Shown here: positions 24,163 to 50,861 of the stretch, piece after piece | Numbering within the stretch: position 1 is the stretch's first letter | Layout of the letters: each line of letters begins with the position of its first letter | Assembly: GCA_963921825.1 (NCBI GenBank) | Contig: OY997588.1 | Location: 8,694,001 to 8,758,000, forward strand | Origin: Erodium maritimum | Taxonomy: Eukaryota > Streptophyta > Magnoliopsida > Geraniales > Geraniaceae | Length of the DNA stretch: 64,000 nucleotides | Direction of reading: 5' to 3' | Translations under genes and position numbers: made by a program | The notes under the pieces: model-generated | Database searches by the model: none | Told to the model about the DNA's origin: nothing | What the model saw: the letters and a program-made list of their open reading frames with translations, nothing else

Positions 24163-27100
24163 ATGGCCCTTTCGTTCACATACTTCCCATTTCAATCCAT
24201 CACTTGCTCTTCCCAAAAACCTTCCACGTCCCCGAACTTGGATCATTTCAAGACCTCTCTCTCTTCTTCTTTCAAGGTAATGACTCCCCCGAAACATGGC
24301 AAGTTAAGGTTGTTGTAAAGGAGTTCTGTTTATCTGAGTTTTGAGTTCCGGTGATTTTTCGCTAGATTATCTCTGTCGTTTTCGATGTTGGTCGCCGGCG
24401 TGTCGGTGTCCATGTATTCGCTGAGTCTGGTTGCCGATGAGATACATTTATTTCCTCAATCTCGGGTACAGTTATGGGGTTTCTGTGAAGGGCGGCTCTG
24501 CTTTTTTGTGCTTCATGGTTGCAAAATCTGGGTAGTCGACCCATTTTTATCCAGACTTCATGGTTGCTAAATCCGAGTTCTAGACTCTTTTGTTAGCCTT
24601 TTGTGTTGCGCTTAGATGATTGTCATATTTGGTTCTGAGACCTTTGTCCCCCTTTGTTGGGCTAGTTTGGTTATTGGTTCGATCTCTGTAGCTAGAGTTC
24701 TGTAATTGGTGCGCCTAATTCAGTCTTTGAATTGGTGAGTTTTAATATATTGCTTTGCCCATAAAAAAAAAGGACAAGGACACGTCCGATTCTTCGGATT
24801 CATGTTTTTGTGCATATCCAATGTCTCTCTTTTAACTTGGTGGTTAAATTTAGGTATTAGATCATGTTTTTATGTTTGTTGGTTTCTTGCATAAAACGAA
24901 TTATGTTTCATTTCATTTCTTCTATATTTTTATATTTGTTGTCTTCCTGTGTGGAACGGGATGGTTCCTTCTTTAGGTCAGGCTTCTTTGTTTGTTTTGT
25001 TTCTAGTATCTGATTTTGTCTTTGTTGACTATTTTGTACTCCTTTTCATATAACTTTTCTTTATGTTTAAAAGATATTTAATTTAAATTTATTTTGCTGA
25101 TAAAAAAATGCCCCTCTTTAACTTTTTTTTTGTTATGCCCCATGATCGATCAGCCTTGGTTGAAAAACTTGCAACATGTGCCATTGCAAATGGATGCAGC
25201 TGTTCAAGCCATCAAGACGGCTTCTTTAGGAGTGGTTGATGCATTTGTTGACTCCACGTTCCGATTCGTTGACCAGCCGTTGCTCCCATCACAAGTAATA
25301 TAGCAATCATGCTAGTTTAATTTAAGTTCCCCCGATTCGGAAGAACTTGTATCAGTATCCCGATTTTGATATTCGATTTTTCTCAACTGCAGAGAAATTT
25401 TGCACCCGTCGATGAGTTGGGAGAACCCGTTCTTATCACGAGGGTTGAAGGAGATATTCCTCATGGCTTTCCGGTTGGAGTGTACATCAGAAATGGTTTG
25501 TTCACTTTGCAATATATACCTCGTAATCTTGATTTTTTTTACTTTTAATTGAAGTAATTCCAATTAATTGATAAACATATACTCTAAAATCATAATCCCC
25601 TCAGGTTATAAACCAAACTGGGTTGAAAAGCCAAACAAACACCATAACACAACAAACAACAGGGTCTAACAATTGCCTATACGTAAGATTGGTTTGTAGT
25701 AAATAAACATATACGTAAGATCATAAGTCATAACAAAGGACATAGACCTTCAGGGTTATTTGTCTTTATACCCTTATCTAGGTTTTTTTGTCTTGTCTAT
25801 TCCGGTGCATATTATGTAATATTGGAGGACAATCTCTGTATTACGATAACAAGTTTTCAGGTAAATTTTGGAATATTTTGTTAAAGTTGATGGAATATTT
25901 CAAAATGCTATGTTAAAATTGAAAGAACTTTAAAAAAAATCTAAATGAAGAAATTACCCTTGTGATAATAAATTAAATTATAAATAAATAATAAAATAAC
26001 TATAAAATAAATTCAGAAAATAAAGTTTAAAAATAAAAGTAAGCAATATTTAACAAATAAGAAAATAATTTTAAAATTAAATTTTCTAATACTAATACTA
26101 AATCTAATTTAATTGTGATTTTAATTTATTTTTAATTGTAAAATTATTGTTTGTTTAAATATTGAGGGGTAAAACAGTGATTTCGTCGAAAAAAGTATCA
26201 AACAATAGTTACCAAAACGTAAAAATTCTTATTGAACGTTACAAAACAAAATATAAGGGTACTTATAATATGTTACACATTCAAAAGGAGTATAAAAGGC
26301 AATCAACCTTTGTGCATACATGCCTTGTTATCCGAAAACACGTATTTTGTGTTTTAATTTGACGAAGGAACCTTATGACACATTTTGGAAAAATATGTTA
26401 GGATATGTAGCTAATGGAACAGCCCTAAAATTATAAGTAGGAACTTGTAAAAGGGTTCTAATCTTATAAAGGAAACAATATTATCGGTAAAAACCTTGAT
26501 GTTATAATTATAATTTCAGGACCAAACCCTTTATTTGGAGGATTTAAGTCAGCGGAGTCATTTTTCGGAAAGTCAAGTCACATTTGGGTTGAAGGTGAAG
26601 GGATGCTCCATGCTTTGTATTTCACTAAAACCAGTGATGCCAAATGGACTGTTTCCTACAACAACCGCCAGGTCGAAACCGACACTCTCGAGCTCGAAAA
26701 ACGAAGAAATAGGCCGTCGTTTCTTCCTGCCGCCGAAGGAGACTCGCCCGCAGTTCTTGCCGCTTATCTTTTCAACATGGTACCAAGATTTGCACAACAT
26801 TGATCTACAAACATGATAGCTGGACTATATGTGACTCTTATATAATCCTTTCTAAAATATTAGTTTTGTTTTAGCGTTATTTTTGTTTTATGCGTTTGTT
26901 TATAAACGTTTTTTCAGTTGAGATTCGGGATGGTGAACAAGTATGTTAGTAACACTAACGTTTTTGAGCATTCCGGGAAGTTTTACTCTATCGCAGAAAA
27001 TCACATGCCTCAAGAGATCGACATTTTAACTCTAAGAACGTTGAGGAATTGGGATGTTGATGGAGCTTGGAAACGACCGTTCACGACCCATCCTAAGGTG

Positions 27101-29389
27101 CTTGTAAATAACTTAGTTTGTCTAGAAAAAGTCATAATATTATCGATATCTGAGAAAGTGAACACTTATTACAATGATGTTTCAGATTGCTCCGGATTCG
27201 AGGGAGCTAGTTATTATGGGAGTGGATGCGGTCAAACCCTACCTTGATGTTGGGATAATCTCCGGTACTAGTCCTTATCTTTTTTTATCAGCAAAACAAA
27301 TTTAAATTAAGCCTCTCAAGACCTTTGCTTCTTAACTTGGAGGCATAATTGAAATGATCTTTGTAATATATTTTTTTGATCCAGCTGATGGAAAGAAACT
27401 AGTTCATAGAGCGGATCTAAAACTCGAAAGGTGTACACTTTCTCACGAATTAGGAGTTACGCAGAGGTCCGTTACTTAGGGATGTCTAGGAAGACAAAAT
27501 TCATATATATTTAGTACCTTATTCATATCTCCTCGGTGTAGGTTCAATGTGATACTGGATTTTCCGCTTACCATAGATATTGGAAGATTATTTCAAGGAG
27601 GATCGTAAGTACATATATCCTTAATAAAAAATATTTATTTTGTACTTTAAACATAATTCGTTATGAAGATTTGTAATTGTGGTTTGTTGCAGATTACTAA
27701 AATATAACAAGGACGGATATGCGAGGATCGGGGTGATGCCACGCTATGGCGAATTTGATTCGGTCAAATGGTTTAATGTTACACCATGTTGCACATTTCA
27801 TGTTTTTAATTGTTTTGAAGACGGGGATGAGGTTAGTAATTAACCCTTGATATTGCCATAAGTTTTATATATACAGGGGACAATAAGTGTGAATAGTGTC
27901 AATCTGTGAACCTTAAATCTGGTTTGAGAAAATAACGAATATGGTTTGAGAAAAACATCCCAGTTTGAAGGAAAAATAATTTGAGAAAATAACGTTTTAG
28001 TTTGAAAAAATATAGTTTTAGAAAATAGCCTTCCCGATTTGGAAAAAACTTTTGTCTGAGAATATTCACCTCAAACTAACTAAGACTTACTATGTATGCA
28101 GATTGTAGTCTGGGGTTGTAGGGCACTTGAATCCATCGTACCAGGACCAGACCTGGGTAGGAACAAACTTGAGTGGTTCTCAAGAGGATTTAGGGCCGCA
28201 AAAGTAGTTGATCAGCAGCTCGGTGTAGTTGGTGAATCAACCGAGGAAGGGCTTTTACGCGGCCGAGCTTACGAGTGGAGATTGAACATGCAGACCGGAG
28301 AGGCTAAGGAGAAAAACTTGACCGGAACTGAGTTCGCTGTTGATTTCCCTGTGATCAATGACCGCTTTGTGGGTCTCAAGAACAAATATGGGTATGTCCA
28401 AGTTGTCGATTCCATCAAGAGCTCCGAAGCAGGTATATACTTAGTATCATATTAGAGGACAACTCAATTAAAAGCTCAGACATATCTTAATAAGATCAAT
28501 GTATATATGTCCAATTTTACTTTACAGGTGGATCAATGTATAATTCTGGACTTGACCATTTCAGGTATGGCCAAGTATGGGGGTCTAGCAAAACTATACT
28601 TTGAAGAGCATGTCACAAGCTCATCTACCCATGTAAGTTATTAAAGTGTGTGATAAGTTGATCGCTTGATATATATCTTGATGTTTTTATTTATCCGTTC
28701 GAGTATTTCGGTTGGATTGGACTTTAACATAGTATCAAGTCCAGTTTGAGTTTATGCTAATAACCTCCCCCTCGATGCCTAAATACACCACGCGCGTAAC
28801 CTGTATTTATACGCGGGGAGTGTTCAAGTGTGTGGATGAAATGTCTTGATGCTTCCACTTATCAGTTTTACGTTGAAGCCCTGCAGCTTTAATTTGTTCC
28901 TTGTTCAAATATTTTGATCTTAAACTTGATGATTAAGGTTCAAATCACAAGTTTATTAATGATTATTTGGAACTTTGATATCATGTGGCAGAGAGAGAAG
29001 CAAAATGAAGATGTGATAAGGGTTGAGTACCATAACTTTGGGGACAATATTTTCTGCTCCGGGACAGCCTTTGTCCCTAAAGAAGGAAGCTCTGAAGAAG
29101 AAGAAGAAGAAGATGGTTGGATCGTCACTTTTGTTCACAATGAAGATACGGACATATCTCAAGTGAGCTCATTATTTTCTGATATATATATGTTTCAATA
29201 TAGTTTAGGAACTATCTTCATTATGTTTTGTTTCGATTTAGTCTAATTATTTATGTATTTGTCCTTACACAGGTTCATGTAATTGACACCAAGAATTTTT
29301 CAAGTGATGCAGTGGCCAAAATTACCCTACCATGTAGGGTACCCTATGGATTTCATGGAGCTTTTATGCCAATATCACCTAAAACCTAG
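24163..29389 (+). CDS. Carotenoid cleavage dioxygenase, tandem copy 1 (13 exons, 615 aa; probably ZAS/CCD1-related clade)
   Basis: Exons: 24163-24276, 25154-25294, 25393-25495, 26520-26779, 26918-27097, 27186-27264, 27385-27466, 27542-27604, 27693-27831, 28102-28432, 28565-28632, 28992-29162, 29273-29389. They join without a stop, all with GT-AG introns. The family cleaves carotenoid or apocarotenoid double bonds with a non-haem iron. The four iron-ligand histidines are present at about 264 (THPK), 313 (SHELG), 377 (CCTFHVFN) and 605 (YGFHGAF). The first two are 49 residues apart, as I recall for VP14. The Ser/Thr-rich N-terminus (about 40 aa) resembles a plastid transit peptide. An acidic run (EEEEEED) lies near residue 560. 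Thirteen exons argue against NCED/CCD4, which are usually intronless. Sequence blocks differ from true CCD1, so a ZAS-type enzyme is my best guess (about 50% sure). Introns 1 and 11 carry retroelement insertions. Confidence 0.93.
24316..24778 (+). mobile_element. Retroposon insertion in intron 1 of copy 1
   Basis: Compared with the 109-bp intron 1 of copy 3, copy 1 carries extra DNA ending in CCCATAAAAAAAA just before AGGACAAGGACA. A short AAGGA sequence flanks both sides and may be the target-site duplication. The body resembles LINE 3' untranslated sequence, and no open frame is recognisable. Confidence 0.6.
24838..25113 (+). mobile_element. Second retroposon insertion in intron 1 of copy 1
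   Basis: This 276-bp insertion is absent from copies 2 and 3. It ends in TTTTGCTGATAAAAAAA and is flanked by CTCTTTTAACTT on the left and CTCTTTAACTT on the right, consistent with a 3'-tailed retroposon and its target-site duplication. The tail is the same as that of the minus-strand elements at 62,185 and 63,470. Confidence 0.7.
28638..28894 (+). mobile_element. Degraded TRIM-like element in intron 11 of copy 1
   Basis: Two related segments of about 75-100 bp (from 28,638, and again from 28,821) share AAGTGTGTG and TCTTGATG blocks. The first ends in GACTTTAACA, followed by TAGTATCAAG, a diverged form of the Met-tRNA primer-binding site. They match the terminal repeats of the intact TRIM at 37,156-37,475. 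The 3' end is worn and I find no target-site duplication. Confidence 0.6.
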
Positions 29390-29599
29390 GCAACAATTAG
29401 TTATGGGTTGTACCATGTTTCACTCAAATTTGTTTCTTAAAAAACAAATGTAATTTCAGTATGTTGAGGGTTTAAGTGATCATGTAAGAACGATGATGTA
29501 ATTATTGTTGGGTATTTTCATCAGTCATGTCTTATATTGCTCTCCATCGGTCCTAGTGGCATTTATCTATTATAAAAATCATACCATCTACATCTTAAG

Positions 29600-30365
29600 A
29601 GTTTAGACAGAACGAGATGAAATATTTGACAAAGTCCACTTGTATTGTGGTTTCGGTTAAGATGGATATGGGTCGCAATGTCGATTCTCTTGGGTTGGTC
29701 CGGATGGTTTGACCCTAACTTTGTCCGATCTGGTACACCCACTGGTTCGATCGGATTTAGTAACCTTTCTCGGACTTGGTTCGGCTGTGGCAATACCTAC
29801 TTCGGATCGTGTTCAGCGTGATTGTTCCAACTTATTACAGTGGATCAGTCATCACTACAGGTGGAAAATAGTGATCCTCCGGGGGATAAACAGAATAGTT
29901 CGTGGAATGAGGTTCTCTTTAAACCTTCGAAATCTAAACCTTTGAATAAGGGTCGTCAATCGAAGCAAGCCCCGTCTAGAGCTTCAAATCGTTAGAGTCG
30001 ACCTCCCAAGTTCTTAAGGGACTATTTTACTGTTGAAATAAAACCATCTTGTTCTTTGAGTTAATGAGAGATTTGTAAATCCTGTGGACGTTGGGAAGTA
30101 GATTTTACAAGCTCGATCTGCTCAGCTAGCTCAGCCTTCTCGACTAAAGGCTTTCGATGATCCAAACTTGACTTCGGAAGGTGAAGAGTGGTCCACCGAT
30201 GTAGGCTAAGTGTTTGCTTTTATGGTTTATTTGTTTTGGTTGTTTTTATCCGCGTCTTATTCCCGCAGTTTCTTTTGAGAGCTCCTATGTAATGGTCGTC
30301 TTTTGGTCTGATCATTCTTGGACCTGATCTTTTTCTTCTAATAAAATTTTTCGAGCTTATAAAAG
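29600..30365 (+). mobile_element. LINE 3' fragment downstream of copy 1
   Basis: A frame near 29,860-30,060 reads SWNEVLFKP, then SKPLNKGRQ and SRPPKFLRDYFTVEIKPSC. This closely parallels the C-terminal end of the LINE ORF1 at 40,690-40,860 downstream of copy 2. The fragment ends in an AATAAAATTTTTCGAGC-type tail near 30,360. It is interrupted by stops. Confidence 0.65.
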
Positions 30366-31030
30366 AAAGGATATCATCTCGTTAGTCAATTTGGCCAAAT
30401 GATGTCTCGATCGCGAATTCGTGCGCACACTACGATTATTTGGGCTTCGATAGCCAACGACTATGCGCCACATAATGCGTTCGTTGGCAAGACATGTCTC
30501 TCTTGTCTCCGACGACTCTTTTTTTTTCTATTAAACAAGAACATCCATTCTCTTTTCAACTTCCTCGTTTTTTAGTACCTCTTCCTCTAAAATTCAATCT
30601 ACCACCATAAACATCCTCAAACTTTTAAGACAAGTGTCGAACGAAGATTCAACAATAGACACTTAGATGGACCGAATGGCTTGAGGAAATGATGGAAGAC
30701 CACAAACGAGGTGGAAGAAAGGGAAAAGGGTGCATCAAACAGTTATCCAAAGCGTTGTCGTGACCCCCCTCATTCTCAGAGAACGTGGAACATAAGACTA
30801 ACATTTCAAGTCATTACGGTGTATGGAGACCATATATCCATGTGCAGGTTCATAATAAGGAGAGACATTTTTCTTCGCATCAAGAATACGCTTGTGGAGC
30901 GGGAACCATACTTCAGACAACGCGAGACTTAGGATTTTCGTCGTACCAGAAATCCACCGCAATGACTTGAACACTGCCTTTAATAGTTCGAAAAAATAGA
31001 GTAAATTTATTTTACAAGTTTAACTCAGAA
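30366..31030 (+). mobile_element. PIF/Harbinger transposase fragment
   Basis: Frames around 30,800-30,965 encode MCRFIIRRDIFLRIKNTLVE and REPYFRQRET, then FRRTRNPPQ. These resemble the N-terminal block of PIF/Harbinger transposases (a RR-x-LFLRI...YF-x-QR-x-DA-x-G pattern). Upstream sequence is CG-rich as in the other Harbinger copies. It is a small dead fragment, and its edges are not defined. Confidence 0.5.
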
Positions 31031-31039
31031 CTTTAGAAA

Positions 31040-31236
31040 CAGTATTTTGAGTTGTGACACAACACAAAGTACGAATATTCAACCATATGGCTTCTTGTCA
31101 ATAACGGTAGGCTATAATTGTAAGTTTGTGGTTAGGGAGAGTCACAAGAGAGTCAGGACATGTCTCTCCCTCGTAACCTTTTTAATTTTCCAATTATTTA
31201 AGAATAAAATCGTCCTTACTATGATTTTTTTAGGGA
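31040..31236 (+). other. Relic of the dioxygenase 5' flank
   Basis: The sequence GAATATTCAACC..., TTGTCAATAACGGTAGGCTA and GTTTGTGGTTAGGG matches the immediate upstream regions of copy 1 (about 24,035-24,105) and copy 2 (about 33,560-33,640). It runs to a CTCTCCCTCGTAACC stretch corresponding to the last bases before the start codon and is then replaced by a MITE. No exon follows. I read it as the promoter remnant of a lost extra copy. Confidence 0.6.
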
Positions 31237-31652
31237 AAATTATAAATATCTACCCTAAACTTGTACCGTTTAACTGGTCTCTATTCTAAAGTTTTTTTTA
31301 ATTGATACCTACTCAAATATTTAGTTATGTAACAAATAGTCCAAGCCGTAAGCTAAAATGACGAAAATACCCTCAACTACACTTTAATAACTATTTTTAA
31401 AAAATTATTTAAAAATCACTTTTGTTATATATATATATATATATATATATTTACTTATTAAATCACTTCAGTTTTATTTATTTTTTAAATATTTAAAAAA
31501 TAACGAAGGGCATTTTCGTCATTTTATCTGACAGCTTGGGCTTTTTTTTATATAACTAAACATCTGAGTAGGTATCAGTTAAAAAAACTTTAGGGTAGGT
31601 ATCAGTTAAATGCTACAAGTTTAGAGTAGATATTTGTAATTTATCATTTTTT
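31237..31652. mobile_element. MITE with long terminal inverted repeats
   Basis: About 150-bp arms are inverted copies of each other (AAATATCTACCCTAAACTTG against CAAGTTTAGAGTAGATATTT; AATGACGAAAATACCCTC against GGGCATTTTCGTCATTTTA), with an ATATAT tract in the centre. The same TGACGAAAATACCCTCA block occurs in the MITE at 34,945-35,379, so they are related families. Target-site duplication is unclear because both ends lie in T-rich DNA. Confidence 0.8.
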
Positions 31653-33224: not shown

Positions 33225-33715
33225 TAAATTTATACTCCGTATCACGCCTAACACCCTTAACAAGAACTTAGAGACAAACATGAAGTTAGTATCACTCAAA
33301 AAGAAAACCCTTCGAAGAAAATGACACGTTTGGACTGCCTATAGAACAATTTTTTTCTCTGTTTGTACTTGTTCACCAACTAGATACTTGTGTCAACTTA
33401 GTAAAAAAGAAACATATAACAAGCTCTTCGATCCAATCGAGTCAATTTTAAATGGCAAGGGGTTACTATTTTCTATTTCAAAATCACGGGTTCAAATTAA
33501 AAAAATATTTTGATCCCAATCAGAGATACATCGTACTATATATAATTACTTTAAATTCAAGAATATTCAACTCAACTATTTTGCTCTTGTCAATAATGGT
33601 GTGCTATACATCGATGTGATTGGTTTGTGGGGTGTGTTAAAGTATAGTCCTTAAGTTTCATTGGAGACAAGTTTTAAGGTAATTGTCCCGTTGCTCTCCC
33701 TCCTTGTACCCAGAA
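33225..33715 (+). promoter_or_regulatory. Duplicated 5' flank of dioxygenase copy 2
   Basis: This flank is homologous to about 23,685-24,162 before copy 1 (for example ACACCCTTAACAAGAAC, AAATCAC/ATGGGTT and TTGTCAATAATGG blocks). The tandem duplication therefore included about 0.5 kb of upstream DNA. The TATA-like CTATAAAT of copy 1 is CTATACAT here at 33,604-33,611. Confidence 0.6.
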
Positions 33716-36603
33716 ATGGCCCTTTCTTCAACTTACTCTCCCTTTCGATCCATCACTTGCTCCTCCCAAAAGCCCTCCACGTCCCCGAGCTCGGATCATT
33801 TCAAGGCCTCTCTCTCTTCTGCTTTCAAGGTAACGACTCTCCCGAAACGTGGGATGTTAATGATTTCATTGTAATTGTTCACTTCGTTTCTTGGGGTTGG
33901 GTTCTGTTGTTGTTTTTAGGCTTCTGTTGTTCTTTTTGTTCAACTGCGCTCGTTCTGTAGCTGGAATGAGTGTTGCTGCTGTGTATCTTTTTTCTCAAAA
34001 GATAATTTCAATTTGCTTTCGCTGATAAAGAAAAGGTTGTTGTAAGAACAGGACATGCCTAATTCTTTAGTATCTTGGTCGGATTCATGAGCGGATCCGA
34101 TGTCTCTCTTTGACTTGTTTTTTTTTTGTTATGTCTCGTGATCGATCAGCCTTGGTTGAAAAACTTCCAACATGTGCCGTTGCAAATGGATGCGGCTTTT
34201 CAAGCCATCAAGATTGCTTCCGTTGGAGTGGTTGATGCTTTTGTTGACTCCACGTTCCGGTTCGTTGACCAGCCATTGCTCCCATCACAAGTAAATCTAC
34301 ATTTCATGCTAATTTGATTTTAATGAATTTGTTTCTTGATTCGGGAGAACTTGTATCAGTATCCCGATTGTGATTTTTGACTTTTCCCCGACCGTAGAGT
34401 AATTTCGCACCGGTCGATGAGTTGGGAGAAGCCGTTTTTATCACGAGGGTTGAAGGAGAGGTTCCTCATGGCTTTCCGGTTGGAGTCTATATCAGAAATG
34501 GTTAGTTTAGTATGCAATTTAAACCTATTAATCTTGATCTTTTTATTTTTACTTCAAGCAATTACAACAGAATTATTGTTCATCTCTATTATTGTGTGCC
34601 TTTCAAAAAAGATTCGCTAGATACTCGTCAATGGCAGTCCAAAAATATAATTGCATGTTTAGCATCATATAAAAATGTTACACTTACATCATAACATGTT
34701 GTGTTATAATTTTTAATTATAAATATAAACAGCCTGCTAATGCTTTCTGTCGTGGTCCATGCCCCGTCACTCAACTCGTGGGTTAGTTGTAAGAACTTAC
34801 CCTTATATATTTGGGGCATGTACCGAAAACTGTTATAAAATTAACAGTGATCAATAAGGTGCAATATCTTTTGGTCACACTGTCTTTTAGGACTTAACAA
34901 TAATTAAGATGAAAAGGTAAAGCATTTGTTCTGAATTTATTCAAAGGAAAACTAACCATACGTACTCAAAACCATGCCCATTTAACTGATGTTTACTCTG
35001 AAGTTTAAAGTTAACTGATGCATACCCTGAAGTTATGACTTGTAACTAAAAACCCCTTCTGTCAGCTGAAATGACGAAAATACCCTCAGTGATTTTTTAA
35101 ATAATTTTTTTAAAATATAAATGAAATGATTTTTTAAATAAAAATGAAGTCATTTAATAAGTAAATATATATATATATATATATAGCAAAAGTAATTTTT
35201 AAATAATTTTTTAAACATAATTATTGAAGTGTAGTTGAGGGTATTCTTGTCATTTTTGCTGACGGAGGGGTTTTGAGTTACATTTTCGAAACTTCAGGGT
35301 ATGTATCAGCTAACTTTATACTTCAGAGTAAACATCAGTTAAATGGGCATGATTTTGGATAGGTATTGATAGTTTTCCCTTTATTCAATACGATATCATA
35401 ACTTAACGGTAACTTTTGACGATTAACCCATGTTAGAATGGTAATTGCAGGACCAAACCCTGTATTTGGAGGGTATAAGTCCGCGGAGTCATTTTTTGGA
35501 AAGTCAAGTCACGTTTGGGTTGAAGGTGAGGGAATGCTCCATGCTTTGTATTTCACTAAGACCAGTGATGCCAAATGGACTGTTTCCTACAACAACAGGC
35601 ACGTCGAAACCAAAACTTCCAAGCTCGAAAAACTGAAAAATAGGCCGTCCTTTCTTCCGGCCATTGAAGGAGACTCGCCGGCTGTTCTTGCTGCTTATTT
35701 TTTCAACGCGGTACCAAAATTTACACAACATATAAATGATTGCCTTATTTCCTTCAACTTTTTATTTTATACATGTATGTTTTTGTTACAGTTGAGATTC
35801 GGGGCGGTGAACAAGTACTTTAGTAACACTAGCGTTTTTGAGCATTCGGGGAAATTGTATTCTACCGCTGAAAATCACACGCCTCAAGAGATCGACGTTT
35901 TAACGCTACGAACGTTGAGGGATTGGGATGCAAATGGAGCTTGGAAACGACCGTGCACGGCCCATCCTAAGGTACTCGAAATGAACTTTCTCGGGAACAG
36001 AACATTGCATATAAGAATTAAGATTATTAGAGGTAGTTATCGACTTTTTCTACTATCTCGCTTGATCAATATTATCGATAATTATATAGGCAACTGAATC
36101 CAGAACAATAAAAATAAAAATAACGATAATAGACTTACGAACAAATCGTTAGGGTTTTTGGTATTGTAGAAGTCCGATCCAACAGAAGGCTCCTATAAGA
36201 CAAAATTTGATATGGGCGAGTGTCTCCTAAGATAAGACGGCCATAAACAGTAGTGAGTGATTCAACTCTTGATGATTTGAGACCGATTTATATTCAAATT
36301 GTAGAACGTCAAAGGAGAAGAAGAATTGAAAATGAATTGAGTGTTTCTGTCATAGGAATTAGTGGTGCCCAAAGCCCAGGCCTGAAAGAGACGGTGGCGG
36401 TCATTTGGGCTCTCTTCATCACACCCTAGTGATGACTTAAGCCCACGACCTCGGCTCCCGTTTTCAACTTTATAAAACGTACGTTGTAACATGATCAATA
36501 TGAATTTGCATTAAACGCCATTAATGCATGTCATTAATTTCATATTTTCCCCAAACTTTGTATACATCTTATGTTCGAGTTTGTAGTGATGTAAACATAA
36601 ATG

Positions 36604-36636
<33 letters not shown>

Positions 36637-39229
36637 CAGAATCGATGACCAAACCAAATAGGATAAATGTCGAAAAATCAGTTGTCCAACACATTCATAA
36701 TAACTGAGAAAGCTGATTCTTATTTGGACAATGTTAAAGATTGCTCCGGATTCGGGAGAGCTGGTTATCATGGGAGTGGATGCGATCAAACCATACCTTG
36801 AAGTCGGGATAATCTCCGGTACTCTCTCAATGTTGCATGATGAAAACCTCTACTGATTAAGCTTCTTAATTTGGGGGCATAATTAAAATGATCCTTGTAA
36901 TTTTTTTGATCCAGCTGATGGAAAGAAACTAGTTCATAGAGTGGATCTAAAACTCGAAAGGTGTACCCTTTCTCACGAAATAGGAGTTACGCAAAGGTAT
37001 GTTATTAATGGATGTCCCGATGTATTTAGTATCGAGGCATTGATTCTTATTCGTATCTTCTCACGTGCAGGTTCAATGTGATTTTGGATTTCCCGCTTAC
37101 CTTGGATATTGAAAGACTAGTTCGAGGAGGACCGTAAGTACATATATTCTTACAATGTTAAAGTGTGAGTCTCACATAAAAATGTATGGATAAATTGACT
37201 ACTTCAATATATATCTCGATGGCTCCCCTCGTTAGTCCGAACTTTTGGGTTGAATAGAGCTTTAACATGATATCAGAGTTGGTTCGGCCCACAGCCTATT
37301 TGTAACATACACCCTGTGGTCTCCGACTCATATGCAGATCTCCAGTCCTACACGTGAGGGGGTGTTGAAGTGTGAGTACCACGTAAAATGTGTGTGGATA
37401 AATTGACCATTTTGATATACATCTTGATGGTTCCACCCATTAGTTCGAACTTTTGGATTGCATAGGGCTTTAACATACAAAAAATTATATATTTGTTTCG
37501 TGCTTCAAACATTATTCGTCAAGAAGATTTCTAATTTTACTGGGTGCAGATTGATGAAGTATAACAAAGACGAATATGCAAGGATCGGGGTGATGCCACG
37601 CTACGGCGATGCAGATTCAGTCAAGTGGTTTAATGTCACGCCATGTTGTACGTTTCACGTTTTCAACTGTTTCGAGGACGGAGATGAGGTCAATAACATC
37701 GCACCTATTACATGTATATTCGGCATCATAGTCTTCAGACACTAGTTTAGTAAAATATGCAATAATGTAACGTAAGACTAAGACTCACTAAATGCAGGTT
37801 GTAGTGTGGGGTGTTAGGGAACTTGATTCCATCATACCGGGACCGGACCATGGTACGAATAAATTCGAGTGGTTCTCTAGAGGATTTAGGAGTATAAAAT
37901 CGGTCGAGGAGAACAATGTAGTGGACGAAGAAGGGCTGTTACGCGGCCGAGCTTATGAGTGGAGATTAAACATGCTCACCGGAGAGGTTAAGGAGAAGAA
38001 CTTGACCGGAACTGAGTTCGCTATGGAGTTGCCTCTGATCAATGGACAATTTGTAGGTCTCAAGAACAAATATGGGTACGCACAAGTTGCCAATTCCATC
38101 AAGAGCTCCGAAGCAGGTATGTCACTGTCTCGAGTGGACTGATCGATTAGGGATAAATTAGATGAACAAAGAAATTAATACTTTTAGCTGTTGAATTTGA
38201 ACTCGTGTCTGTGAGAAATTAATATTAGTATAATTTTTATCAATTCACCCGTACCATAGTTGTTAAACATGACTAGTTGTTTGGTGTAAACATAATTATG
38301 TAACTTTACTTGACCATTTCAGGTTTGGCCAAGTATGGGAGTCTAGCAAAGCTATACTTTGAAGAGCATGTCTCAAGTTCATCTACTCATGTAAGCGACT
38401 GAAGCTTTAATTGATAAATTAATTGTTCAAATACTTTGAACTTAAACTTGATGATTAAGGTTCAAATCATAATTATTAATGGTTATTTGTAACTTTGATA
38501 TAATGTATCAGATAGAGAAGCAAAATGAAGATGTGATAAACGTTGAGTACCATAACTTTGGGGACAATACCTTCTGCTCTGGGGCAGCCTTTGTCCCTAA
38601 GGAAGGAAGCTCTGAAGAAGAAGATGGTTGGATCGTCACTTTTGTTCACATTGAAGATACAGACATATCTCAAGTGAGCTCATTCTCTTCCGTTATATGT
38701 TTCGGGTTAATTACTTTTTGTACCCTTTTTCTATTGGAAACATACCTCTTGTACCCCTGCGTTTTATAACGTTCAATACCGTTTTGGTAACTGTCATTTA
38801 GTACCCTTTATGAATTGGTCACAGATTATTTAATACCCCTTATGTATTGATAACAGAATATTTAATATCCCTTATGAATTGGTCACAAATCGTCAAAATG
38901 ACGTAAACTTAACCAAAATTTTATCCAAAGCGTTACCAATACATCAGGGTACTAAAAGAGTATTACCAATAGAAAATGGGTACTAAAGGTAATTAATAGA
39001 AAATGGGTACTAAAGGTAATTAATCCATATGTTTCAGTATAGTTTCGAAACTATCTTTATTATGTTTTGTTTCGATTTAATCTAAATTATTTATGTATTT
39101 GTCCTCACGCAGGTTCATGTAATTGACACCAAGAATTTTTCAAGTGAAGCAGTGGCCAAAATTACCCTACCATGTAGGGTACCCTACGGATTTCATGGAG
39201 CTTTTGTGCCAATATCACCTAAAAACTAG
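33716..39229 (+). CDS. Carotenoid cleavage dioxygenase, tandem copy 2 (13 exons, 608 aa)
   Basis: Exons: 33716-33829, 34150-34290, 34398-34500, 35451-35710, 35792-35971, 36740-36818, 36915-36996, 37071-37133, 37550-37688, 37798-38116, 38323-38390, 38512-38673, 39113-39229. They join without a stop. All splice phases equal those of copy 1, so the two arose by duplication of a whole gene. The four iron-binding histidines are at about 264 (AHPK), 313 (SHEIG), 377 (TFHVFN) and 598 (YGFHGAF). The transit-like N-terminus [13 protein letters not shown] is kept. Exon 10 is 12 nt and exon 12 is 9 nt shorter than in copy 1; the latter trims the acidic run. The intron 5 acceptor is preceded by TTAAAG instead of TTTCAG. 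Introns 1, 3, 8 and 12 carry transposons, and intron 5 holds about 600 bp not found in its sisters. Function as for copy 1. Confidence 0.93.
33870..34034 (+). mobile_element. Retroposon remnant in intron 1 of copy 2
   Basis: Relative to copy 3, intron 1 of copy 2 has a T-rich insertion ending in TTTGCTTTCGCTGATAAAGAAAA. This is a diverged form of the TTGCTGATAAAA tail found on several other retroposons in the window. Confidence 0.5.
34945..35379. mobile_element. MULE-type MITE in intron 3 of copy 2
   Basis: The 435-bp element has long inverted arms (AGGAAAACTA...AAACCATGCCC against GGGCATGATTTT...AGTTTTCCC) and an AT-rich centre. It is flanked by a perfect 9-bp direct repeat, TTTATTCAA, at 34,936-34,944 and 35,380-35,388. 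Long arms and a 9-bp target duplication are typical of Mutator-like MITEs. It has no coding capacity. Confidence 0.9.
36098..36735. other. Copy-2-specific insertion in intron 5, class unknown
   Basis: Intron 5 is 88 bp in copy 1 and 170 bp in copy 3 but 768 bp here. The extra DNA has no long frame, includes an ATAT microsatellite near 36,605-36,631 and a GC-richer part near 36,360-36,470. I cannot assign a transposon class or its ends. Confidence 0.55.
37156..37475 (+). mobile_element. TRIM retrotransposon (terminal-repeat miniature) in intron 8 of copy 2
   Basis: Two terminal repeats, 37,156-37,267 and 37,363-37,475 (112 and 113 bp), both start TGTT(A/G)AAGTGTGAG and end GGCTTTAACA or AGCTTTAACA. 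Immediately inside the left repeat is TGATATCAGAGTTGG, a primer-binding site of the Met-tRNA type. A purine run (GTGAGGGGG) precedes the right repeat. A perfect 5-bp target duplication, TACAA, flanks the element. The 95-bp interior encodes nothing, so it must be moved by enzymes of another element. Confidence 0.93.
38704..39026. mobile_element. MITE in intron 12 of copy 2
   Basis: A 323-bp element has inverted ends GGGTTAATTAC and GTAATTAATCC, and further inverted GTACCC/GGGTAC blocks inside. It is flanked by a perfect 9-bp repeat ATATGTTTC (38,695-38,703 and 39,027-39,035). Copies 1 and 3 show the uninterrupted site (ATATATGTTTCAATATAG) at the same intron position, which confirms the insertion. 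The 9-bp duplication suggests a Mutator-like origin. Confidence 0.92.
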
Positions 39230-41600: not shown

Positions 41601-41654
41601 TGAAAATACAGATAGTTAAATGTGGTAAGATTTTAATTCGATGTCAATTTTTTT

Positions 41655-42845: not shown

Positions 42846-42849
42846 AGAT

Positions 42850-43261: not shown

Positions 43262-43537
43262 CAATTAGAAAAGTCATTTGCACCTCCTAATTTTACTCCA
43301 CATTTTGTGACAGATCCTAAAACAAAAGTGGTACACGTTTACAAAAAGTATCATTCACGTGTAAAATAATTATGAAAACGGGGCTAGGATTTGTAAAAAA
43401 GAATACCACATTTATACTATTTTTTGTAAAAAAATACCACATTTATGTTAGTTTTTGTAACAAAAAACCACACTTGTGTTAGGATTTGTCACAAAATGTG
43501 GAACACGGTTAGTGTGTGCAAATACTTTTCTAATTTG
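43262..43537. mobile_element. MITE in the promoter region of copy 3
   Basis: Inverted arms of about 60 bp: AATTAGAAAAGTCATTTGCAC against GTGCAAATACTTTTCTAATT at the outside, and a near-perfect 23-bp pair 43,298-43,320 / 43,479-43,501 inside. The centre holds repeated TTTTTGTAA(A)AAA and ACCACA motifs. It ends only about 140 bp before the start codon of copy 3. Confidence 0.8.
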
Positions 43538-43560
43538 GCTAAGAAATGACGTTTTCCCTG

Positions 43561-43567
43561 TATATAT
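43561..43567 (+). promoter_or_regulatory. Possible TATA box of dioxygenase copy 3
   Basis: TATATAT lies about 117 bases upstream of the start codon, between the MITE and the coding region. The sequence here is not homologous to the TATA region of copies 1 and 2. Only the last 65 bases or so before the ATG are (from CATTGGAGACA). Assignment is tentative. Confidence 0.35.
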
Positions 43568-43677
43568 GTGTGTGCGCCGGTTCTTTCTTTGTTGGCTAGT
43601 CTTTTGTTCCATTGGAGACAACTGGGTCGGTTCTGTCCTCGTTTTAAGGTGGTTGCTCTCACTCCTCGTACCCAAAA

Positions 43678-46600
43678 ATGGCCCTTCACGTGCCATTTCT
43701 ATCCATCTCTTGCTCTGCCCAAAAGCCGTCCACCTCCCCCAACTTGGATCATTTCAAGCTCTCTCTCTCCTCTGCTTTTAAGGTAATGACTCTCCCAAGT
43801 TAAGCTTCTTGTAAGAACAAGGACATGCCCGACTCTTCGGATTCATGTCTCTCTTTGACTTGTATTTTTGTTATGTCCCATGATCCATCAGCCTTGTCTG
43901 AAAAACTTCCAACATGTGCCATTACAAATGGATGCGGCTTTTCAAGCCATCAAGACTGCTTCACTTGGAGTGGTTGATGCTTTTGTTGACTCCACGTTCC
44001 GGTTCGTTGATCAGCCGTTGCTCCCCTCACAAGTAATCTACATTTCGTGCTAATTTAATTTAAGTTCCTGTTAAAAAAACATGGAGCTGCTATTCTTGGG
44101 AGGTGGAGAGCTGTCGGTGTTGTAGTGTAAAGTCAAGAATAACAGCTCCATGTTTTCTAACAGTTCCCCTGATTCGGAATAACTTGTATCACTATCTCGA
44201 TTTTGATTTTCGACTTTTCTCGATCGCATATTTGCAGAGAAATTTCGCACCGATTGATGAGTTGGGGGAAGCTGTTCTTATCACAAGGATTGAAGGAAAT
44301 GTTCCTCGAGGCTTTCCGGTTGGAGTCTACATCAGAAATGGTTTGTTCACTTTTTAATTTGTATCTTTGATTTTTTTACTTTTACTTGAAACAATTCAGA
44401 CAGTTAATTAATCGGATTTACCTAATCTAGATAAGTTATGGACAACTATAAACCATCGACTATAACAATCATGTGTGATCACATCAAACCTGATAAAATG
44501 ATATAATTTTAGTATAAAGTAATAAAACCGATATTTATAGTTTCGTTGTATATATATGGGTGTCTCTATTTGGCACTTTGTTTTTGCCGCGGGATACTAG
44601 GGAAACTAACGTATTACGTGAAACCATAACAGAGGACATAAACTTCACTGGTTCTGTGTCTATGCCCTTATCTAGGTTCTTTGATCCCCTGCATATTCTG
44701 CTTAATTATATGCCTGATTTATGACGATTCTATGTTTTAATTCGATGGACAAACCTTATGAAACCTTTTGAAAAATATGTTAGGGTATATAGTTAGTTAG
44801 TTTGAAGAGGGGCATAATGTTAATGGTTAGAGGATTGATATTATTGGTGAATGAATTAAATAGCTTGAAAACATTATATTTCTTGTTCGGGGGACAAGTC
44901 CTGATAATATTGATGTAGTCATCAAGCAATACTAAATAATATTTATATTCAGAAATGTCCTTGTTAGGACGCTGGCCCATAAACCCATTGTCTAGGAACA
45001 GTAGGATACGAACAGGGCGGGTGTTGTGTTGACCCGTTCCAATCGGGTTGTTGGCCGGCCCATGGAGAAGATGGATGTTGGGCCCAAGTCGGCGGCCCAG
45101 TCCAAAGTAGTTGTTGTCCATTCCAGGCCGTGGAAGGAGCATACCAGACCCGCTCTTGAGATTGTCAGTCTGTGTTTTACAGCTTAGGTTCAAACCGGGG
45201 ACCCCCACGGTGGCCTTTGTTGGAAGAATTACAACCCCGAGACGGAATACGCCCTCGAGAACCACCACGAGAGGGGGCTTTGTCCACACCATCCTTAGTA
45301 AAGTATCCAAAGGTGTGAACATACATTGCAGAGGCGGACGAAACAGAGCCTGAAGAAGGTTGCTTCATTTTGCGAGTTTCCTCAAAAACAAGCCTAGAAC
45401 GAGCTTCATAAAAGGGAGGGAGTGGGTCGCTCTGTTGAATAATAATGGACACATTATTATAGGCCTCCGATAATCCTGCAACCAACTAAGGAAGAATCGA
45501 CAACCAACTAAGGAAGAATCGATTGTTAGACACCAGAGCCCTCATGGCATATAACTAATCTGCAACATTTTTCAATTCTTGAAAAAACTTGACACATTAA
45601 CAAAATCATCCAATTTAATAGAAGAAAATTGATGTTCAAGATAAATAGTGCGAGAATGCTTATTGTCCTGAAAGTTGAGCCAAAGAGCATCCCAAGCTCG
45701 GGTAGCGGTATTATCTGGTGCAATGATCATTTGCAGTAGGTCATTAGAGATCGTACCGTAAATCCATTAAAAGACTGTAACGTCAAGACGATCCCATATG
45801 TCAGTTGGGACAATTAATCGAGAATCAGTCGGAACCAATGGAGAGGCAGTAGTCGGTAGTGTAGCAGATGTCTCTATGGCTTCGGTGGACACGACAGAGG
45901 AAGAATCCAACACAAGCGGGGCAGCAACAGTGGTGGAGCCAGAATTGGAGCTGGTCGTCGGAGTTGCTTCAGGGAGAATATGATAAAGAACACGAAACAC
46001 TCAGCAATGGATCTTGAATAATTTTAGCCCAAAATGAGTATTGTTCCTTGTCTATTTCCAACGTTATTGGAATGGAGCTTCGTATTTTGGGCATTTTCAG
46101 CATTGGGTATAATCTAGGATCATTCATGGTTGCGGGAAGAACAGAGGGGAATAGGGGCGACGGAATGCGTGAGAGAAGTGGGAAAAGAAGGAAAAAAAAG
46201 TAAAAGAGGTTTTAGGTAAACCTCTGTTACCATTTTGGAGTTTAAACCGTACTTCGTATATTCATTATGCACTTACAGATAAGAGCATTATATTCAAAAC
46301 CTATACAAGTTTATCTAAGAGTTTAATTGTATTCCAACTCTGATAATAACAATATCTCTAACAATTCATGAATCTTTGCAAGCGGAGTTGTTCTTTGTGT
46401 CCTAGCAGTCAAAACAATCGTTTAATAGGGTCTTTAGCTCGTTGTATTGGTTTAATCGTGTCGGACAGTTGTGTTAAACTAGTATCTTTTGTATTTCTTA
46501 ATAAGCCTGTGTTCCGTGACTTAGAACACCGATACACCTACCTTTGGTGGATCCAAGACCATATTCTCGACCTTAGGGTTTGCTCCATAAAATTTGTATT

Positions 46601-49600
46601 CGGATATCTTATATAAATGAAAGTTTACCTCGCAATCAAAAATAACCGTTCTTGTTTCACTTTGATTAATCTACCATAATTGTATTTAGTTGAATGGATT
46701 GATTCATTCTCATTCATGATTTGTTGTCAACTCGGTGGGTATTTTTGGGCGAAAGAAACTTTTTTTATTAATCATGGTATTTCAATACATTGGATGTGCG
46801 TCAGAGACTCTCTGACCACTAAGAATAGACCTAGAACATGTAAAAGTGTTTGCTATTCTTTTCATAAAATAACCGTCGCAGACGGTATTGACTTGGTGCC
46901 CTAGAGGCGAGAGCAGAATACGGAGAAAGAGGATGGGAAACTGGAGAATACTGAGAATCTCAACAGTTGTGGTGCTGGTGGGAGGCAACGCATCAGCTAG
47001 GGACCCCTCCCAGGGAAAGTCCCCGATACTCCCCTCCCAAGGGAAATCCTTGATTCCATGTGCAGAGATTAGCGAGTCTGCACAGACAAAATCGGCGGCA
47101 ACGTCGGCATCCTTGGATCTCGCACTCCCTGAACCAAGGACCAGAGCAAGGTCGTGTTTTGCCTTCCATTCCGCCTTCCGTTCTCCAAACCCTAGTTCGT
47201 CGGCCCAAATTTTCCACGATTGTGCTCTGGATAATCCTCGTCCGGGCGGCGCGACGCCTAGGGTTGCGCTTCCACCTTGCCTTAGGCCGGGCCTGTGGCG
47301 GGAGAGATGAGCCGGACATAAGCCGGGAGACACGGTGTTGGTGGCGGAGGGGAGCCAACACCGTGGTGCCTGACATAAGCCTGGAGCGACGACGACGGTG
47401 CGGCTGCGACGACTTCAGAGAAGCCGACGGAAAAGACGACGTTAAGGTCTGATGCCGAGGTGAGGGGGCCAGTAGAGAGCGTGGAAGAGAAAAACAATAC
47501 CATGACAAAAGCCATAACTATTACTGCACGAGAGAGAGGGCTCTTAACGGTCTGTGCGGCTAGCCCTAGCAGAGCTTATATTTTCAGAGATATTCTTTAC
47601 CATATCGGTATTGTCAACTTAGTGGTTGAATTTAATATTGAGTGGACTTCCTAATTTAGTAACAAAAGAAAAATTATTATCTATAATTATTGTTCTGAGC
47701 ATCTAATTACTATATACTCCTCCATGTCAGTCCAAAAGTATAATTGCATGTTTAGCATCATATAATATTGTTGTCTTAATTTTTTATTTTAAATAAAACA
47801 GCTTGCTAATATTGGCAATGATTTCTGTCGTGGTCATACCTGTCACTCCACTTAATTTATGTTGGTTAGTCGAAACAATATTTTATCGGTAAATCCCTAA
47901 ATGTATTGAAATTCATAACTACTTATTCATCAATTTTTTTTACCATTGATGTTATAATTGTAATTGCAGGACCAAACCCTCTATTTGGAGGACTAAAGTC
48001 TGTGGAATCATTTTTTGGAAAGTCAAGTCACATTTGGGTCGAAGGTGAAGGGATGCTCCATGCATTGTATTTCACCAAAACAAGTGATGCGAAATGGACT
48101 ATTTCGTACAACAATCGGTATGTCGAAACCGAAACTTTCGAGCTCGAAAAACAAAGAAATAGGCCATCGTTTCTTCCGGCCATTGAAGGAGACTCTCCGG
48201 CAGTTCTTGCCGCTTATCTTTTCAACGTGGTACAAAATTCGCACAACATTGATCTACAAACATGATCGCTCGACTATACATAACTCATATATAATGCTTG
48301 TTTTTGACGTTATTTCAGTTGAGATTCGGGAAAGTGAACAAGTACATTAGTAATACTAGCGTTTTTGAGCATTCGGGGAAGTTGTATTCTATCGCGGAAA
48401 ATCACATGCCTCAAGAGATCGACATTGTAACGCTAAGAACGTTAAGGAATTGGGATGCTAATGGAGCTTGGAAACGAACGTGCACGGCCCATCCTAAGGT
48501 ACCCCTAATTAACTTTGTCGCAAACAAAACATTACATATAAAATCAACTCTCCATCATTGCTAAAAATAAGCTTGGTATAGACAGTGGTTGACTTTTTTC
48601 ATTATCTCACTTTATCGATAATTCATTCAGAACTGAGAAAGTTGACACTTATTTCAATGATGTTAAAGATTGCTCCGGATTCAGGAGAGCTAGTTATCAT
48701 GGGAGTGGATGCGATCAAACCATACCTTGAAGTTGGGATAATTTCCGGTACTCTCTCTATGTTGCATGAGCAAAACCTATACAAATTCAGCTTCTTAATT
48801 TGGGGACATAATTAAAATTATACTTGTAATTCTTTTTATCCAGCTGATGGAAAGAAACTAGTTCATAGAGCGGATTTAAAACTCGAAAGGTGTGCACTTT
48901 CTCATGAAATAGGAGTTACGCAAAGGTACTTTACTAACATGTCTCGTAGAAGTAAAAAGGACTAAAACTCGATATATTTAGTATTGAGTCATTGATTCTT
49001 ATTCATATCTCCTCACGTACAGGTTCAATGTGATACTGGATTTTCCACTTACAATAGATATTGAAAGATTAGTTCGTGGAGGATCGTAAGTACATATACA
49101 TTGTTACAATCTTCAAGAAAAAATGTGTCTGTTTTGTGCTTGGAGCATTATTTGTTATGAAGACGTTTTTTTTGTGCTCGGTGAAGATTGATAAAGTATA
49201 ACAAGGATGAATATGCGAGGATCGGGGTGATGCCACGCTACGGCCAAGCAGATTCGGTCCAGTGGTTTAGTGTCACACCATGTTGTACATTTCACGTTTT
49301 CAACTGTTTCGAGGACGGAGATGAGGTTAGTAATAATCACACATATGATATGATATACAGTAAAAACTCGATAAATTAATACACGATAAATTGATAAACT
49401 CACTATATACAGGTTGTAGTATGGGGTTGTAGAGCACTTGAATCCATCATACCAGGACCCGACGGGGGAACGAATAAATTCGAGTGGTTCTCTAAAGGAT
49501 TTAGGAATACAAAATCGGTCGAGGAGCACGATGAATCGGACGAGGAAGGGCTGTTACGCGGCCGAGCTTATGAGTGGAGACTGAACATGCGCACGGGAGA

Positions 49601-50861
49601 GACTAAGGAGAAAAGCTTGACCGGAACCGAGTTCTGTATAGACTTCCCTGTGATCAATGGCCACTTTGTGGGTCTCAAGAACAAATATGGCTACGCGCAA
49701 GTTATGGATTCGATCAAGAGCTCCGAAGCAGGTATGTCTACTAATAAACGAAATTGACTGATGACTTGTCAAATTACATCTATATATATATATATATATA
49801 TAATTTGATTTTCAATTTTTATATCTAACAAAATTTAACTTGATTCATATAAGTGTAAAAGTTCCAGTTATGAAACCGAGTTTTACTATGATGCACATGT
49901 AAAGTCGAATCTTATACACATAAGAGTCAATGATGAAGTGTAAAATCTATTACCACTTAACATGTGTTATGTACAATTGTACAAAGGCGAGGGAAACAAG
50001 AGCTTACTAATAACACTAAATTTTTATTTGTGGGGACGGATTAAATATGCATACCTTGATTTTAAAATATATAGTTAATCAGATTAACACTTTATTTGAC
50101 TGTGAACCTTAACTTCGGTTGGTATACGTGTTTGTATACTATCCGACTCAAAATATATTCTTATTACCGTCCACATATACATGTCCAGCTTTACGAGTGA
50201 ATTTCTTAGTTATAGTTATTGAACTTGAATTATGTGACTAGTGTAAACATATAATTGTCCACTTGACCATTTCAGGTTTGGCCAAGTATGGGAGTCTAGC
50301 AAAGCTATACTTTGAAGAGCATGTCACAAGCTCTTCTACTCATGTAAGCAACTAAAGCTTTAATTGTTTAATTGTTCAAATACTTTGATCTTAAGCTTCA
50401 TGATTAAGGTTCAAATCACAAGTTTATTAATGGTTATTTGGAACTTCGATATCATGTGGCAGAGAGAGAAGCAAAATGAAGATGAGATAAAGGTGGAGTA
50501 CCATAACTTTGGGGACAATACTTTCTGCTCTGGGACAGCCTTTGTCCCTAAAGAAGGAAGCTCTGAAGAAGAAGAAGAAGAAGATGGTTGGATCATCACT
50601 TTTGTTCACAATGAAGATACAAACATATCTCAAGTGAGCTCATTATTTTCTGATATATATGTTTCAATATAGTTTAGGAACTATCTTCATTATGTTTTGT
50701 TTCGATTTAGTCTAATTATTTATGTATTTGTCTTTACACAGGTTCATGTAATTGACACCAAGAATTTTTCAAGTGAAGCAGTGGCCAAAATTACCCTACC
50801 ATGTAGGGTACCCTATGGATTTCATGGAGCTTTTGTGCCAATATCACCAAAACCCTATTAA
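43678..50861 (+). CDS. Carotenoid cleavage dioxygenase, tandem copy 3 (13 exons, 609 aa)
   Basis: Exons: 43678-43782, 43892-44032, 44238-44340, 47970-48229, 48319-48498, 48669-48747, 48844-48925, 49023-49085, 49187-49325, 49413-49731, 50276-50343, 50463-50633, 50742-50861. They join without a stop, with the same phases as the sister copies. The iron-binding histidines are at about 261 (AHPK), 310 (SHEIG), 374 (TFHVFN) and 598 (YGFHGAF). The N-terminus ([16 protein letters not shown]) is three residues shorter and more diverged than in copies 1 and 2. Exon 10 has the same length as in copy 2, exon 12 keeps the long acidic run of copy 1, and the C-terminus ends PKPY instead of PKT or PKN. Intron 3 is expanded to 3.6 kb by a Copia fragment and other DNA. 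Function as for copy 1. Confidence 0.93.
44069..44162 (+). mobile_element. 94-bp hairpin insertion in intron 2 of copy 3
   Basis: Arms TGTTAAAAAAACATGGAGCT... and ...AGCTCCATGTTTTCTAACA pair over about 30 bases with few mismatches around a 35-base loop. The element begins TGTTA and ends TAACA and is flanked by a perfect 5-bp repeat GTTCC. Copy 1 has the empty site (TTAAGTTCCCCCGATTC). The TG...CA ends and 5-bp duplication suit a small solo LTR. The hairpin shape also suits a fold-back MITE. Confidence 0.85.
44785..46363 (-). mobile_element. Truncated Copia retrotransposon in intron 3 of copy 3
   Basis: On the minus strand a 128-bp 5' LTR candidate (46363-46236, starting TGTTAGAGATATTG) is followed by TGGTAACAGAGG, a primer-binding site close to TGGTATCAGAGC. 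A gag remnant starts at 46,127 and has a stop/frameshift near 46,010 (LFKIHC then stop, VFRVL). It continues with [22 protein letters not shown] and LSEAYNN. An integrase-like piece ([14 protein letters not shown]) lies near 44,920. The remaining pol and the 3' LTR are missing. The element is dead and lies antisense to the host gene. Confidence 0.75.
46364..47690. other. Unclassified insertion within intron 3 of copy 3
   Basis: This DNA has no counterpart in intron 3 of copies 1 and 2. The part at 46,880-47,560 is GC-rich with overlapping frames on both strands (the longest 183 codons on the minus strand). It contains a short internal repeat (GGGAAAGTCC / GGGAAATCC region near 47,015-47,050). 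None of the frames shows a domain I recognise. It may be retroelement leader DNA or a captured gene fragment. Confidence 0.4.

Follow-up and report, generated by a model that had tools for sequence, protein, structure and literature searches.

A tandem array of three putative zaxinone synthase-type carotenoid cleavage dioxygenase genes in Erodium maritimum

We analyzed a 64,000-nucleotide stretch of the genome of Erodium maritimum (assembly GCA_963921825.1, contig OY997588.1, positions 8,694,001 to 8,758,000 of the forward strand), hereafter called the window, which is C1:8694001-8758000 in a 763-Mb genome of 40 contigs. The window carries three intact genes for carotenoid cleavage dioxygenases (CCDs), g1, g2 and g3 (together, the trio), in one array. 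The reading that we favor, with a probability of roughly three in four, is that the array is a tandem triplication within the little-studied plant zaxinone synthase (ZAS, or CCD-like) subfamily, that the reaction known from rice is the likeliest one, and that the copies are most likely equal in the reaction they carry out. Placement of the trio in the ZAS/CCD-like subfamily is strongly inferred from sequence comparison.

Results

Three complete CCD genes stand head to tail

We found three complete genes on the plus strand, head to tail, each assembled from the sequence as 13 exons (Table 1). All introns (36/36) have GT..AG borders, each gene has a single open frame, and the intron phases are the same in g1, g2 and g3 (0,0,1,0,0,1,2,2,0,1,0,0). 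Spliced alignment of the g1 protein recovered all internal exon boundaries of g2. The proteins are 84.5-87.3% identical to one another. Once the exons of the trio were masked, no further fragments of the CCD family were found in the window, and two open reading frames inside the long third intron of g3 had no Pfam match.

The proteins belong to the CCD family. Pfam RPE65 (PF03055) matched each of them in full length: profile positions 1-469 in g1 (E 3.3e-107), 1-469 in g2 (E 3.8e-105) and 2-469 in g3 (E 7.4e-111). We aligned them with 22 comparison rows, made up of 17 genes of the same genome, two PDB chains and three Arabidopsis proteins. The four iron histidines (His264, His313, His377 and His605; g1 numbering, here and below) are present in g1-g3 and in all 22 rows. 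The initial annotation of this DNA had called a CCD family and described three head-to-tail 13-exon genes with shared splice phases and four iron histidines. All of this was seen in the models and the alignment, and its outer coordinates (24163 and 50861) and exon count agree exactly with the gene models. Its label "plastid-type" finds weak support in the N-termini, which over their first 60 residues have a high content of serine and threonine and two acidic residues.

The trio is separate from CCD1, CCD7, CCD8 and NCED/CCD4

A family search of the genome gave at least 53 exon-level matches (these counts are lower bounds), which we interpreted as 20 genes, with 3 of them in the window and 17 elsewhere. 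The latter are four CCD1 genes (L011-L014), two CCD8 genes (L009, L010), one CCD7 gene (L015) and ten single-frame NCED/CCD4 genes (L001-L008, L016, L017). CCD1 was labeled through a PDB carotenoid 9,10-dioxygenase chain and NCED through maize VP14 (PDB 3npe). The CCD7 and CCD8 labels come from alignments to Arabidopsis proteins (residues 6-617 for CCD7; 34 or 66 to 570 for CCD8), and we infer that L007, L008, L016 and L017 are CCD4 genes. Searching the genome with the g1 protein revealed no second locus of the trio's type; matches outside the array were 29-41% identical (single-frame genes) or 59-62% identical across the last exon of CCD1 (34 residues).

The trio forms a clade of its own. In a 26-row tree, it was supported at 100/100, as was CCD1; CCD7 and CCD8 stood apart, and NCED and CCD4 grouped at 87/74. 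The four CCD1 genes of the genome joined the solved CCD1 chain at 100/100 with the trio outside. The initial annotation had named a tree uniting the trio with CCD1 as the result that would speak against it, and the tree separates the two. The position of the trio among the CCDs had weak supports (58/53 and 43/38), and the deep branch order was not resolved. A 102-row tree from a quick search, with 77 bacterial rows added, again separated the trio from other CCDs. There it joined CCD1 plus NCED/CCD4, outside both, at a support of 87 in the approximate likelihood ratio test (SH-aLRT), on long branches on which we do not rely.

Intron positions point the same way. The exon structure had been described initially as unlike that of NCED/CCD4, as is borne out by 13 exons in the trio and ten single-frame genes in the same genome. 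As a clue to subfamily it is useful in part: intron positions separate the trio from CCD1, but the exon count does not, since 12 introns, the number in each trio gene, are reported for both CCD1 and ZAS genes (PMC9387305). In one alignment, the trio and three modeled CCD1 genes (L011, L012, L014) had no intron position in common among the 11 comparable introns (the CCD1 models begin after intron 1, and the full L013 model was left out). The nearest CCD1 intron, close to trio intron 12, was 4 columns off and in a different phase. A CCD7 intron with matching phase was three columns from trio intron 6, and this intron may be common to both; no trio intron came within four columns of one in CCD8. 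Because intron number is equal in CCD1 and ZAS and the positions differ, positions rather than counts should tell the two apart, which suggests a simple rule for sorting such genes.

It is very improbable that the trio is a divergent expansion of CCD1, the 9,10-cleaving, cytosolic enzyme, with a similar exon number. At 31-34% identity, plant CCD1 (PDB 9m3e/9luz/9m6z and the four genes here) comes closest to the trio, with which it shares the family, the four histidines and 12 introns (in the modeled part of three genes). However, the trio lies outside the fully supported CCD1 clade, none of its introns coincides with one of CCD1, and CCD1 keeps a second-shell glutamate that the trio has lost (see below). 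CCD1 also has FDGDGM where the trio has VEGEGM. By tree and introns, we ruled out membership of the trio in CCD1, CCD4/NCED, CCD7 and CCD8.

An exon-6 site links the trio to rice ZAS

Two CRISPR guide targets in rice OsZAS have been printed (PMC10255347). We found that the exon-6 guide matches in frame within the trio's own exon 6, with mismatches at 4/23 positions in g3 and 6/23 in both g1 and g2; no match with three or fewer mismatches occurred in the window. The best match in the 17 other CCD genes had 7 mismatches (in the ten single-frame genes, the scan covered the entire locus). Among 300 codon shuffles of g3, 4 or 5 mismatches were never obtained (0/300) and 6 were obtained twice (2/300).

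Rice has a multi-gene set, as does E. maritimum: OsZAS (LOC_Os09g15240, Os09g0321200), OsZAS1b and OsZAS1c (Os08g0369800, Os08g0371608) and OsZAS2 (Os06g0162550). Like the trio, these are PF03055 CCDs outside CCD1/4/7/8/NCED, with 12 introns reported and an exon-6 SGELVI(F/M)G site. The OsZAS locus is listed as OsCCDL12, with 548 amino acids (aa) compared to 608-615 in the trio (PMC10634354). The rice copies are described as two ZAS clades on three chromosomes (PMC9806602), whereas the trio is a single 27-kb head-to-tail array whose members group together. Two CCD-like genes listed ~0.1 Mb apart on rice chromosome 8 (PMC10634354) are taken to be OsZAS1b/1c.

Glycine replaces a second-shell glutamate in all three copies

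Residue 544 is glycine in 3/3 copies (motif FCSG[T/A]AFVP) and glutamate in 22/22 comparison rows. The trio keeps Glu233; at residue 468, g1 and g3 carry Asp and g2 carries Glu. For a solved relative, hydrogen bonds are reported between three glutamates of the second shell and three of the iron histidines, the last glutamate being bonded to the C-terminal His522 (PMC8866865). Glu464 of that protein sits 58 residues ahead of His522, and residue 544 sits 61 residues ahead of His605. By position, Gly544 would thus be the equivalent of the glutamate that supports the last iron histidine in the solved relative.

We compared this column in bacterial proteins, using the best 80 of 551 rows, and counted Glu 71, Asp 5, Ala 2, Gly 1 and gap 1. 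Three rows (3/80) were dropped for having an iron-histidine column that was not His, and these are three of the four Ala/Gly/gap rows; Glu or Asp is present in 76/77 of the four-His rows. One cyanobacterial CCD with four iron histidines (L085, from a Trichodesmium metagenome-assembled genome) has Ala in this column and five other cyanobacterial rows have Asp, so this second-shell position varies in bacteria.

In the tobacco CCD-like group, which also stands apart from CCD1/4/7/8/NCED, one glutamate required for activity is reported to be replaced by glycine in three NtCCDL proteins (PMC6888377). In view of that report we dropped the idea that the Glu-to-Gly change is something new. It is probably an already known, little-noticed trait of the CCD-like group, and as such would support membership of the trio. 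Because it is common to all three copies and a similar replacement occurs in three tobacco proteins, the change is probably older than the triplication. The tobacco genes differ from the trio in other respects: NtCCDLa and NtCCDLb are described as lacking one iron histidine, where the trio keeps all four, and the same report detected no tandem duplication in tobacco.

Loss of this glutamate might leave one or more copies with weak catalysis or none, serving as substrate binders or decaying. Such an outcome would fit the bond between the second-shell glutamate and the last iron histidine in the solved relative, as well as the acidic residue in nearly all four-His bacterial rows. We regard it as improbable, given that all copies are under purifying selection (see below), that the four histidines are kept and that the replacement probably predates the triplication.

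The array is old and its 3' ends appear homogenized

Pairwise synonymous divergence (Ks) among g1-g3 is 0.28-0.32, and the ratio of non-synonymous to synonymous divergence (Ka/Ks) is 0.22-0.29. The synonymous rate is therefore 3 to 5 times the non-synonymous one, which excludes chance. The triplication is old, and every copy is under purifying selection. At a generic plant rate of ~6.5e-9 per site per year, the triplication would be very roughly 20-25 million years old.

The 3' ends of the genes are more alike than the rest. Synonymous differences were 0.07-0.09 in exons 12-13 compared to 0.26-0.29 in exons 1-11, and were lower in all three pairs (Fisher p 0.0016, 0.00015 and 0.0038). In intron 12, identity is 99% for the g1-g3 pair and 87-88% for the other pairs, and a 3' tract of g1 closely matches g3 (Table 1). 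We read these patterns as homogenization of the 3' ends, through either unequal exchange or gene conversion. When conversion was tested by permutation of run lengths, a g1-g3 run had p 0.005. The test also returned a g2-g3 run of 30 sites, which probably stems from misalignment of g1, and we used the synonymous-difference test instead.

Similarity of g3 to g1 ends at the last codons and the following 600 bases are unalike (42%), so g3 has a different 3' flank. The 5' flanks of g1 and g2 are similar (Table 1), which indicates that their duplicated unit takes in upstream sequence. The array looks like an ordinary local tandem expansion. In Cerasus humilis, ChCCD-like-a and ChCCD-like-b are also reported as tandem CCD-like genes, differing from the trio in being two copies, with proteins 58.55% similar and 19 and 11 introns (PMC10255781). 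A ~400-bp repeat in opposite orientation (73%), at 31232-31612 (+) between g1 and g2 and at 34979-35380 (-) in intron 3 of g2, looks like a small mobile element.

Proposed function of the trio

The proteins of the trio would be non-heme iron dioxygenases with the RPE65 fold, a seven-bladed propeller. In the trio, Fe(II) would be held by the four histidines, an apocarotenoid would be bound in a hydrophobic tunnel, and one of its double bonds would be cleaved with O2 to give two carbonyl products. Judging from the homologs OsZAS and OsZAS2, cleavage of apo-10'-zeaxanthinal at C13-C14, yielding zaxinone and a C9 dialdehyde, would be the likeliest reaction; the rice enzymes are reported to make zaxinone from this substrate at that bond (PMC6379432, PMC9806602). 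In rice, the product is a signal for growth and for the association of roots with fungi. The reaction may take place in root plastids and, by analogy with rice, may tune strigolactone levels and mycorrhizal colonization. Rice zas mutants are reported to have higher strigolactone levels and less mycorrhizal colonization, and tomato SlZAS4 is reported to be induced by mycorrhiza. One paper proposes that a further apocarotenoid for mycorrhiza is made by ZAS enzymes as well.

ZAS is described as missing from 16/16 surveyed non-host genomes. We found CYCLOPS (exons 50-82% identical) and CCaMK (exons 71-83% identical) in the E. maritimum genome. With both kept, the common symbiosis pathway is probably intact, and their presence fits the published link of ZAS with mycorrhizal hosts.

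The three copies most likely keep one reaction and differ mainly in expression, in a putative division of labor. The initial annotation had suggested that the expansion could bring new apocarotenoid signals or substrates, and we found nothing that speaks for this. Given the purifying selection on the copies and the tandem genes of C. humilis, three genes in an array do not by themselves point to new chemistry. Among exons 1-12, residue variation between the copies peaks in exon 10 (0.33) and exon 1 (0.32). Within six residues of seven metal-site positions, 17/91 residues vary, compared to 123/615 overall; residue 468 has six of these 17 in its vicinity, and His377 has none. Examples of copy-specific near-metal residues are T263 in g1 and T231, T236 and E468 in g2.

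These differences could also be given another meaning. The trio might be a small dicot ZAS-type set with divided tasks, in which at least one copy, having a second shell reduced by Gly544 and changes of its own around the metal and in the part encoded by exon 10, makes an apocarotenoid other than zaxinone that acts in mycorrhizal roots. We consider this version unlikely.

Weighing the subfamily assignment

The initial annotation had guessed the ZAS subfamily. The separate clade, the 12 introns, the exon-6 guide match and the Glu-to-Gly change argue for that guess, and the three other rice guides do not match clearly above chance. OsZAS guide 1, placed in exon 4 in one part of its source and in exon 2 in another, fits best in exon 4 of g1, in frame, with 9 mismatches, which does not exceed chance. 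Both OsZAS2 guides (PMC9806602) were not clearly above unrelated CCD genes, so that one of the four published rice sites (1/4) clearly exceeds chance.

Other findings also weigh against our preferred reading. Our trees contain no full-length ZAS: matches among solved structures included no plant ZAS sequence, and the best 80 of 551 matches in a scan of bacterial and archaeal genomes all had bacterial titles. The CCD-like group is reported to have 8-11 exons (PMC6888377) compared to 13 here, and the passages of that paper on the tobacco replacement name no position for the glutamate. In C. humilis, the CCDs, the two CCD-like proteins included, are all said to keep three glutamates (PMC10255781), which conflicts with glycine as a subfamily-wide trait. 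With respect to function, the papers used here report the zaxinone reaction for rice enzymes only (OsZAS and OsZAS2), and seven mycorrhizal host species are also listed without ZAS, so that its association with hosts is not a strict one. P1BS and MYCS-type sites were not consistently enriched upstream of the trio (two P1BS sites at g2 compared to 0.7 expected, none at g1 or g3). Finally, residues around the metal vary about as often as those in the remainder of the protein, which makes equal chemistry of the copies an assumption.

Our results might also indicate that the trio represents one more plant subfamily, which would lie close to rice ZAS without being part of it and would act on a different substrate. 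The makeup of the trees, the three rice guides not clearly above chance and the report of dicot clades ZAS3-5 separate from those of rice (PMC9806602) would be compatible with this idea. However, published surveys recognize six plant CCD subfamilies, and this genome has other genes for each of the remaining five (for CCD4, through the inferred label of four genes); the exon-6 match and the Glu-to-Gly change both point to ZAS/CCD-like. A further subfamily therefore seems doubtful, and we prefer ZAS/CCD-like membership.

Since all three intact copies sit in a single array and no further copy was found, the trio is a convenient system: a single deletion should take out the entire subfamily. Its natural Glu-to-Gly change is open to comparison with CCD1 of the same plant. 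We found no mention of this array in the open-licence literature and no match in paper texts to six peptide strings. A scan of viral contigs gave no relative.

Table 1. Positions of the three genes and of related features in the window
Feature	Position	Strand	Details
g1, putative ZAS/CCD-like gene	24163..29389	+	13 exons, 615 aa; gene model, Pfam
g1 exons	24163-24276, 25154-25294, 25393-25495, 26520-26779, 26918-27097, 27186-27264, 27385-27466, 27542-27604, 27693-27831, 28102-28432, 28565-28632, 28992-29162, 29273-29389	+	
g2, putative ZAS/CCD-like gene	33716..39229	+	13 exons, 608 aa; gene model, Pfam, spliced alignment
g2 exons	33716-33829, 34150-34290, 34398-34500, 35451-35710, 35792-35971, 36740-36818, 36915-36996, 37071-37133, 37550-37688, 37798-38116, 38323-38390, 38512-38673, 39113-39229	+	
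g3, putative ZAS/CCD-like gene	43678..50861	+	13 exons, 609 aa; gene model, Pfam
g3 exons	43678-43782, 43892-44032, 44238-44340, 47970-48229, 48319-48498, 48669-48747, 48844-48925, 49023-49085, 49187-49325, 49413-49731, 50276-50343, 50463-50633, 50742-50861	+	
g3 intron 3	44341..47969	+	3629 bp compared to 1024 bp (g1) and 950 bp (g2); extra sequence
Gly544 site, FCSG(544)TAFVP in g1	exon 12: 28992..29162 (g1), 38512-38673 (g2), 50463-50633 (g3)	+	alignment
g3 exon-6 guide site, SGELVI[F/M]G	48681..48703	+	4 mismatches/23; counterparts at 27198 (g1) and 36752 (g2)
g1 3' tract, part of intron 11 to exon 13	28885..29388	+	95% identical to g3 50356-50857
g1 5' flank and exon 1	23685..24307	+	69% similar to 33225-33860

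Other features of the genome and the window

Two other places in the genome have neighboring CCD genes. L016 (C1:153147036-153148421, +) and L008 (153153531-153154922, -) are a single-exon, CCD4-like pair, tail to tail and ~5 kb apart, and represent another local CCD duplication. On C9, two CCD1 genes at ~21.297-21.310 Mb (L098/L013) and ~21.352-21.358 Mb (L014) lie ~42 kb apart. L013 has a ~5 kb intron with its first exons further upstream, and is only seemingly truncated.

In the window, a fragment of a plant transposon protein (PF04827, E 1.7e-48; 22247-22645, -) lies shortly upstream of the array, and a partial aquaporin (major intrinsic protein) gene (PF00230 positions 120-222; 52627-53025, -) lies directly downstream. 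Positions 11755-12006 are a perfect 126-bp tandem duplication. An open frame of 352 aa (59829-60887, +) has below-cut-off similarity to NAM-associated and Myb/SANT-like domains and is perhaps related to a mobile element.

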